Assembly (NCBI GenBank): GCA_018671895.1
Contig: JABHGV010000020.1
Span: 1-38,234, forward strand
From: Rhodospirillaceae bacterium
GTDB taxonomy: Bacteria; Pseudomonadota; Alphaproteobacteria; Rhodospirillales; JABHCV01
Length of the DNA: 38,234 nucleotides
Reading direction: 5' to 3'
This document shows positions 9,221-26,112 of the stretch, piece after piece. The translations under genes and the position numbers were made by a program. The first letter of the stretch is position 1; each line of letters starts with the position of its first letter. The notes beneath the pieces were generated by a model. The model did no database searches, was not told the origin of the DNA, and saw only the letters and a list, made by a program, of their open reading frames with translations.

Positions 9221-9832
9221 TTAAGAAAAATCCCCAAGGTCAAGCATCTGAAAGGCGTCCAGCCCCATGTCGGAGTGGGTCGATATAACGACCATACCGC
9301 CGCCATCGCGATGTCGGGCGATGGTTCCTTCGAGCCTCTTAATGGTTGCCTTATCGAGCGCCGTCGTCGGCTCATCTAGCAGCCATAGGGGGGCTGGCCT
9401 GACGACGATACGGGCCAGCGACACCCGACGCTTTTGACCGGCTGACAGGAACCGCCCCGGCACATCGGCCAAATGACTGATACCGAACGCTTCCAGCGCC
9501 GCCATCACCGCACCGCCACTGCGAAGCCCGGCCCAGAAGGCGAGGTTTTCGGCAACATCAAGCACCGGTTTGACGGCATCCAGATGGCCAACGTAATGCA
9601 ACCGACCGCCATGGCTTTCCGGGTCTTCGGTCGTATCTTCGCCATTCCAGGTAATGGTTCCCTCTGCCGGGGGCAGCAATCCGGCCATCAATCTAAGCAG
9701 ACTCGACTTGCCGCTGCCGTTGGCGCCGACCAGAACCAGCGCTCCGCCGGACTCTAGTTTGAAGTCGAGTCCCTGAAACACGGTTCTTTCGCCGCGTACA
9801 CATACCAAATTCTTACCGCTGAAATCGTTCAT
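9221..9832 (-). CDS. ccmA: Haem exporter ATP-binding protein CcmA
   Basis: ATPase of the CcmAB complex, first gene of the operon. The Walker A motif is GANGSGKSS (about residues 36-44), the ABC signature is LSAGQKRR (about 129-136), Walker B is LWLLDEP (about 149-155), and the H-loop is in VISTHSD. 203 aa is standard. A good ribosome binding sequence (GAGGG) lies just before the ATG. The gene is divergent from acnA, an arrangement also seen in other Alphaproteobacteria. Transcription must start in the 383-nt divergent gap, which also holds a minus-strand intrinsic terminator upstream of this gene. Confidence 0.96.
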   Translation of the reverse strand: MNDFSGKNLVCVRGERTVFQGLDFKLESGGALVLVGANGSGKSSLLRLMAGLLPPAEGTITWNGEDTTEDPESHGGRLHYVGHLDAVKPVLDVAENLAFWAGLRSGGAVMAALEAFGISHLADVPGRFLSAGQKRRVSLARIVVRPAPLWLLDEPTTALDKATIKRLEGTIARHRDGGGMVVISTHSDMGLDAFQMLDLGDFS

Positions 9833-9885
9833 AGACCCTCATCCATTCCCGGAAACGTACCTTAGTGCAGCCAACAGCCAAACCT

Positions 9886-9924
9886 AAAAAAAATCGGCCG
9901 GACCGCGAAAGCGAATCCGGCCGA
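9886..9924 (-). terminator. Intrinsic terminator upstream of ccmA
   Basis: A perfect 9-bp stem (9894-9902 with 9916-9924), extended inside the loop by CGC/GCG around a GAAA-type tetraloop, is followed on the minus strand by eight T (9893 to 9886). The direction is unambiguous because the plus-strand flank has no T run. It lies 54 nt before the ccmA start, so it ends a transcript that begins between ccmA and acnA: either a separate small RNA or an attenuated ccm mRNA. Confidence 0.8.
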
Positions 9925-10010
9925 CAAGTTGAGGCAATCTTCACACCGCCAGTGAGGGGGACCCTCTGGCGATATGATTCTCAAGGGGACCAGAGAAGGG
10001 GATCTCTGGA
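9886..10010 (-). ncRNA. Candidate structured small RNA or ccm leader RNA
   Basis: Read on the minus strand, this part of the ccmA-acnA gap folds into three successive hairpins. The first has arms 10003-10009 and 9990-9996 (7 bp) with a C-rich loop. The second has arms 9962-9971 and 9947-9958 (10 bp with a 2-nt bulge). The third is a terminator (9894-9924) followed by eight T. The C-rich motifs TCCCCTT, GTCCCCTT and GTCCCCCT recur, as in alphaproteobacterial sRNAs whose C-rich loops pair with ribosome binding sites. No strong promoter is visible; a weak extended -10 (TGCCATACT, about 10047-10055) is one option. The gap (9833-10215) holds no convincing protein gene. It could instead be an attenuating leader of ccmA. 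Confidence 0.45.
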
Positions 10011-10215
10011 TACGCGAATCGGGAAATCCGCATGAGGTGAATTAAACGGGGTGAGTATGGCAAGAATAGGGCAATCGTGACCGAATGCCGAAAAAAGCCG
10101 CTATCGGCACTTGAGTCGACAGAAACAAACGGGATTTCCCATTCACGAGGGGACGATAAAACCCTATATACTGCATTCAATACCTATTAATACTCGCCAG
10201 CCAGGAGACAATCCC

Positions 10216-12900
<2,685 letters not shown>

Positions 12901-26035: not shown

Positions 26036-26112
26036 GCGCCCGTAGCTCAGTCGGATAGAGCACCAGATTCCTAATCTGGGGGTCACAGGTTCGAATCCTG
26101 TCGGGCGCACCA
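26036..26112 (+). tRNA. tRNA-Arg (anticodon CCT)
   Basis: 77 nt including an encoded CCA end (26110-26112). The acceptor stem GCGCCCG (26036-26042) pairs perfectly with CGGGCGC (26102-26108). The D-arm has GCTCAG...TCGGATAGAGC, the anticodon loop TTCCTAA gives CCT at 26070-26072 (reads AGG), and the T-arm has GGTTCGAATCC. Tail-to-tail with pgi. No flanking direct repeat or integrase is seen. Confidence 0.97.

Follow-up and report, generated by a model that had tools for sequence, protein, structure and literature searches.

The window, i.e. the whole stretch of DNA that was analysed (38,234 nt), carries two genes in divergent orientation around the locus described here: ccmA starts at 9832 and is read from the minus strand, acnA starts at 10216 and is read from the plus strand. 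Both were identified with NCBIfam models (TIGR01189, 226.7 bits, for CcmA; TIGR01341, 1380.5 bits, for AcnA). The gap between them, read on both strands, holds what is almost certainly a real structured small RNA (sRNA), whose features are collected in Table 1. A structured minus-strand RNA had been proposed for this gap in an initial annotation, and both the coordinates and the fold confirm it: the 169-nt stretch from 10050 to 9882 folds at -72.5 kcal/mol, against a mean of -47.1 kcal/mol for shuffled sequences (z -6.57; 0 out of 200 shuffles are as low). The 5' end of the RNA would lie near 10034 (give or take a few nucleotides), as placed from the -10-like hexamer and hairpin 1.

Table 1. 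Features of the predicted sRNA and its upstream region in the ccmA-acnA gap (window coordinates)
Feature	Position	Strand	Basis
Conserved upstream promoter/activator-like element, window form CTATTCTTGCCATACT	10054..10069	-	consensus of 90 copies CATAATnTCGCCACATT
-10-like hexamer TTTAAT	10041..10046	-	consensus CTTnAAT in alignment A4; last T in 87 of 90 copies
Predicted small RNA, ~149 nt	9886..10034	-	fold, -69.5 kcal/mol
Hairpin 1, 9-bp stem, loop UCCC in the window	10012..10033	-	sequence and fold
Hairpin 2, stem CCAGAGA/UCUCUGG, loop UCCCCU	9990..10009	-	sequence and fold
C-rich GUCCCCUU (the GTCCCCTT site), directly 3' of hairpin 2	9983..9990	-	sequence; its G closes hairpin 2
Hairpin 3, apex GUCCCCCU	9947..9971	-	window folds
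Intrinsic terminator, 9-bp perfect stem and T8	9886..9924	-	sequence

The three C-rich words that the initial annotation had reported within about 60 nt are exact, and actually span 48 nt of the minus strand: TCCCCTT (10002-9996), GTCCCCTT (9990-9983) and GTCCCCCT (9962-9955). The minus strand of the window has 11 occurrences of TCCCC and the plus strand 18, and nowhere else do three of them share one strand within 80 nt. The same annotation described two hairpins followed by a strong oriented terminator (a 9-bp stem plus T8); the sequence bears out the terminator, and the number of hairpins has to be corrected to three, hairpin 1 being kept in relatives as well. At the position of hairpin 3, many of the other copies show, by eye, a small hairpin of the form UCGGC..GCCGA.

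A consensus terminator scan reported nothing at the locus on either strand because it allows loops of 3 to 8 nt, and the 9-bp arms of this terminator are 13 nt apart. Among the relatives described below, 84 out of 89 testable copies have an intrinsic terminator on the same strand. On the reverse strand the count is 7 of 89 and in the upstream sequence 6 of 89, and 72 of 445 shuffled sequences contain one. The low count on the reverse strand is also the reason why an RNA on the plus strand (e.g. a CsrA decoy) was rejected. Between the terminator and ccmA (9833-9885), a second T-rich block with a TAnGGT-like word can be seen by eye in several relatives, and this block is perhaps the ccm promoter itself.

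To follow the RNA beyond the window we used DNA similarity, the neighbourhoods of ccmA relatives and three covariance models. DNA similarity to the element (E up to 1) was found in five out of six genomes of the same family, the window's own included. Among the best 80 of 515 ccmA relatives, many have a recurrent layout upstream of ccmA when inspected by eye: the CATAAnnTCGCCACA element, a TTTAAT-like hexamer and then the RNA, with a hairpin bearing a C-rich loop, a CCAGAGA-C-rich-UCUCUGG hairpin, a C run and a terminator. Model R1, built from 13 copies including that of the window and used with an E-value cut-off of 0.001, gave 92 matches in 91 of 317 genomes of the order (a single match in 90 genomes and two in one), at most 13 of which are building sequences. 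Across the class, the window's own genome was the only one of 385 to match R1, in a sample that includes a few other members of the same order. Within the 80 ccmA loci R1 matched 49 times (E up to 1), each time on the strand of ccmA.

Model R2 was built from 90 of the 92 R1 matches, so these building sequences match it by construction; it finds the RNA in 106 out of 317 genomes of the order, representing 55 of 115 genera. At the cut-off used 211 of the 317 genomes have no R2 match, and in these the RNA is absent or too diverged. Of the 80 ccmA loci, 47 have R2 matches (48 in total, E up to 0.1), and these too share the strand of ccmA. A cultured relative, Magnetovibrio blakemorei MV-1 (L019), matches R2 with E 5e-4. 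The window copy scores 81.4 bits with R1 and 66.0 bits with R2, being among the building sequences of both models. Model R3 describes the RNA alone: it was built from 18 copies, none of them from the window's family, and leaves the upstream element out. It finds the window RNA with 38.9 bits (E 8.5e-6), as the sole match in its own genome and across the 385 genomes.

The one genome with two copies (G293) has them on two contigs (L186 and L187), with identical promoter element, hairpin 1 and hairpin 2; this pair may be a real duplication or an assembly artefact. In a metagenome-assembled genome (L032, 2454-2990), the terminator hairpin seems by eye to be repeated in tandem after the sRNA, and a second, weak R2 match (17.9 bits) lies at 2454-2519; perhaps this is a local duplication of the sRNA gene.

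Structural conservation was assessed on 90 of the 92 R1 matches (88 distinct sequences). Out of all cells at paired positions 92.6% can pair, and 14 of the 15 pairs are changed on both sides in some copies, in an alignment that was fitted to the model and is hence biased towards its structure. Cells changed on both sides number 119 (counting sequences, not events); shuffling gives 20.9 +/- 4.0 such cells, and sliding the partners by one to three columns no more than 19. In helix 2, six of seven pairs show changes on both sides, the remaining pair never varies, and 99.0% of the cells are paired. Helix 1 is the weaker of the two: all eight pairs show changes on both sides, 85.1% of the cells are paired, and 57 copies lack its two outer pairs. 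In the same fitted alignment, 62 of 90 copies form at least four of the five central pairs of hairpin 1, and 12 of 90 have a left arm that is shortened or missing. RNAalifold applied to the raw MAFFT alignment recovers four pairs only, with hairpin 1 misaligned. The 115 nt starting at hairpin 1 have a median fold z of -6.70 (81 of 89 copies below -2), and the next 115 nt have a median of 0.12 (12 of 88 below -2). Conservation and compensatory change among relatives had been named beforehand as the comparison on which the proposal could fail; it was carried out and the finding survived, with 14 of 15 pairs covarying. On this comparative evidence, the structure of the ccmA-gap RNA is under selection.

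The region upstream of the RNA is conserved in its own right. In an alignment of 90 copies (A4), element columns C5, G14, C16, A19 and T21 are invariant, and the remaining positions of CATA and GCCACA are kept in 77 to 89 of the 90 copies. A simple consensus scan found no sigma-70 promoter at the locus on either strand; because of this absence, the sRNA promoter is inferred to be read by an activator or an unusual sigma factor. The element alone was searched for as a 17-base pattern in 80 genomes of the order, with the reversed pattern as a control. There is one match in each of 13 genomes and none in the other 67, and the reversed control gives none. Out of the 13 matches 11 are at the sRNA locus, and 10 of these are R1 sites; the eleventh (L191 in G009) is a strongly diverged copy that had not been found by R1; it has C7 and C8 runs and a hairpin resembling a terminator, and ccmA lies downstream of it. 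The window's own copy of the element is too diverged for the pattern and was not matched by it.

The other two pattern matches (2001-2017 in both L192 and L193, from two genomes of one genus) carry the exact element (CATAATTTCGCCACATT) outside the sRNA locus, and were rejected as sRNA copies. In L192 the element adjoins a gene for a B12-dependent ribonucleotide reductase, and L193 looks alike by eye; these elements may be chance occurrences or mark another target of the same regulator. In two further genomes of one genus, a gene for a LysR-type regulator (L120, 2280-3086, assigned by Pfam; L151, 2917-3855, assigned by eye) starts about 450-700 nt downstream of the sRNA. LsrB, the protein that activates the sRNA NfeR1 of rhizobia, is itself a LysR protein, which makes the LysR protein of L120 and L151 a candidate regulator. 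The near-invariant upstream element should be usable directly as bait for its regulator.

Since the RNA is on the ccm strand, its relation to the ccm genes has to be considered. The initial annotation offered, besides a free sRNA, an attenuated ccm leader that senses something such as haem or iron status; in such a leader the terminator would end ccm transcription early unless a signal prevents it. Indeed, 62 of 90 copies have the start of ccmA within 400 nt downstream, on their own strand. Altogether, 77 of the 90 fetched segments have a same-strand ccmA after the RNA, at 400-800 nt in four of them and beyond 800 nt in 11; the other 13 segments have no ccmA, although two of these have less than 150 nt of downstream sequence. 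A place directly upstream of same-strand ccm genes is thus not a property of all copies, and in 15 of the 90 ccmA is more than 400 nt away. Seven of these 15 were inspected, and in five (L138, L151, L155, L159 and L177) an open frame clearly lies between the RNA and ccmA, the other two (L107 and L165) being ambiguous in this respect. Gene contexts were listed for 19 of the 90 copies and for open frames of at least 90 aa, so a 71-aa protein would be missed. Six neighbour proteins were assigned by Pfam: a LysR regulator (L120), an Asp/Glu (glutamate) racemase-like protein (L128), an MFS transporter (L159), an AFG1-like ATPase (L185), an aminotransferase (L138) and an FMN reductase (L177), the last two encoded on the opposite strand. 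Other genes come first in some copies, and the RNA is therefore better explained as a free sRNA than as a ccm leader. We consider the leader very unlikely, and the proposed sensing of haem or iron status found no support either.

The flanking genes suggest another reading, in which the gap holds a plain terminator and regulatory DNA of acnA and ccmA and no functional RNA. The upstream element is strongly conserved DNA, and two genes flank the window copy, as this reading would have it; but both hairpins show compensatory changes, the conservation extends to copies without acnA or without an adjacent ccmA (a divergent acnA is seen in 32 of the 90 segments, whose fetched length is short), and R3, in which the upstream element is left out, still finds the RNA. 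This makes purely regulatory DNA highly improbable. What is conserved is the combination expected of an intrinsically terminated sRNA: an oriented terminator and a conserved structure that are independent of the downstream gene.

The C-rich character of the unpaired parts is shared by most copies. CCTCC occurs in hairpin 1 of 58 of the 90 copies (the window RNA is among those without it), CCCC in the loop of hairpin 2 of 77, and 78 have CCC no more than 9 nt downstream of hairpin 2; CCCC is also found in the terminator loop of 35 of the 84 copies having a terminator, and CCTCCTC is present in 43 of 90. In hairpin 1 the stems vary while the loops remain C-rich. CCUCC is the core of the anti-Shine-Dalgarno (anti-SD) sequence of 16S rRNA. 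Duplex energies computed against eight translation starts in the window gave no discrimination among them. A coding function was rejected, as a closed ATG or GTG frame of at least 15 aa inside the first 125 nt exists in only 9 of the 90 copies.

No Rfam family reaches its cut-off at the window locus or in 11 homologue loci, and a comparison of L108 with Rfam gave chance-level matches only; the window's only Rfam match at gathering score is a tRNA gene at 26036-26109. Between 9600 and 10400, the sole Rfam match at E up to 5 is RF00519 (alpha-r8, mmgR/SisA), which covers hairpin 3 and the terminator with 20.4 bits (E 0.12). As is probable for the present RNA, MmgR and SisA-D (the latter described in PMC12559287) are trans-acting sRNAs of alphaproteobacteria, and the weak match could mean that the RNA is a diverged alpha-r8 sRNA. 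The score, however, is well under the 41-bit cut-off, none of the 11 homologue loci has any family at gathering score, and G013 and G014, both of them genomes with the present RNA, have RF00519 over the cut-off at other loci (49.4 and 57.2 bits). Membership in alpha-r8 was rejected, and we give it the lowest probability of all the explanations considered, a value that the matches in G013 and G014 lowered slightly. The window genome itself has sub-cut-off RF00519 matches at G000:C31:14725-14806 (29.7 bits) and C85:6477-6546 (28.1 bits); these are possibly diverged alpha-r8 sRNAs, or chance, and weak RF00519 matches are partly chance, since a Thermus control also gives them.

In layout, and in layout only, the RNA is like NfeR1/alpha-r14 of Sinorhizobium and its relatives. 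According to PMC10746234 and PMC7143759, NfeR1, whose coordinates give a length of 122 nt, folds into three hairpins that have variable stems and C-rich anti-SD loops. Its promoter is its own and is accompanied by a conserved upstream motif, and its silenced targets are ntrBC and transport mRNAs; SmelA075/A099 are described in PMC3927594 as resembling NfeR1/alpha-r14. The present RNA likewise has three hairpins (window folds), variable stems (pair counts for hairpins 1 and 2), C-rich loops and a conserved upstream element. The Rfam library probably includes an alpha-r14 model. The hairpin loops of alpha-r14 each carry the 9-mer CCUCCUCCC, whereas this sequence (searched as CCTCCTCCC in the first 125 nt) is present in 0 of 90 copies here. 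The upstream motif published for alpha-r14, CTTAGAC-N17-CTATAT, is different from the element found here. The families from which alpha-r14 is described are Rhizobiaceae, Brucellaceae and Phyllobacteriaceae, and S. meliloti has six copies of it, against one per genome in 90 of 91 genomes here. The alpha-r14 loop sequence is absent from the present RNA, which is best filed as a separate family.

Two other groups share single traits with it. The CcsR (cuckoo) RNAs of Rhodobacter and other alphaproteobacteria reportedly expose anti-SD sequences in hairpin loops, and in this they are similar to the present RNA; GsrN of Caulobacter is said to be an alphaproteobacterial sRNA with a C-rich loop as well, a likeness that we draw by description only. 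The organization of CcsR is different: as stated in PMC10253847, the four CcsR RNAs share a transcript with the DUF1127 gene ccaF1, which is made from an RpoHI/RpoHII promoter and from which RNase E releases them, whereas the present locus has a single RNA with an upstream element and a terminator of its own. We found no description of the present RNA in Rfam or in the open-licence literature, which is not proof of novelty; in a paper on Azospirillum sRNAs (PMC7685610), neither ccmA nor 'aconit' occurs.

Taken as a whole, the locus probably encodes an independent sRNA of about 100-150 nt, widespread in the order, that acts in trans by seed pairing with SD regions, and it most likely works like NfeR1/alpha-r14 and CcsR. 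Transcription would start just 5' of hairpin 1, from a promoter marked by the dedicated conserved element, and would end at the intrinsic terminator near 9886. The stems would then present the C-rich seeds, i.e. the CCUCC that most relatives have in hairpin 1, the CCCC of hairpin 2, the C run after it and, in some copies, a further C run in the terminator loop. These seeds may pair in trans with the G-rich Shine-Dalgarno regions of several mRNAs, and the pairing would block ribosome binding or speed decay, leading to lower translation. The initial annotation had already suggested a free sRNA that pairs with G-rich ribosome binding sites: its first half is supported by the covariation, the C-rich loops, the oriented terminator and the upstream element, and its second half, the pairing with mRNAs, would be the probable mechanism. 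The repeated C-rich hairpins could instead titrate an RNA-binding protein as a decoy, which would fit the presence of several similar C-rich loops per RNA and their retention while the stems of hairpin 1 change; but the sequence most common in hairpin 1 is CCUCC, which suits RNA pairing, and we regard the decoy as unlikely.

Going further with the pairing sRNA, we may tentatively predict, as a rather doubtful but specific extension, a mostly single-copy global regulator that uses anti-SD-like hairpins and a dedicated, otherwise nearly unused promoter element with an activator or sigma factor, and that switches translation of many respiration-linked genes, with ccmA and aconitase as frequent neighbours. 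An sRNA that is found in about half of the searched genera and has no Rfam match would give the order a post-transcriptional regulator to study. It would also suggest that sRNAs with anti-SD loops are a recurring alphaproteobacterial design that extends beyond rhizobia and Rhodobacter. The order includes Magnetovibrio. For Magnetospirillum gryphiswaldense, the transcriptome paper PMC9549626 reports one Rfam sRNA, BjrC80.
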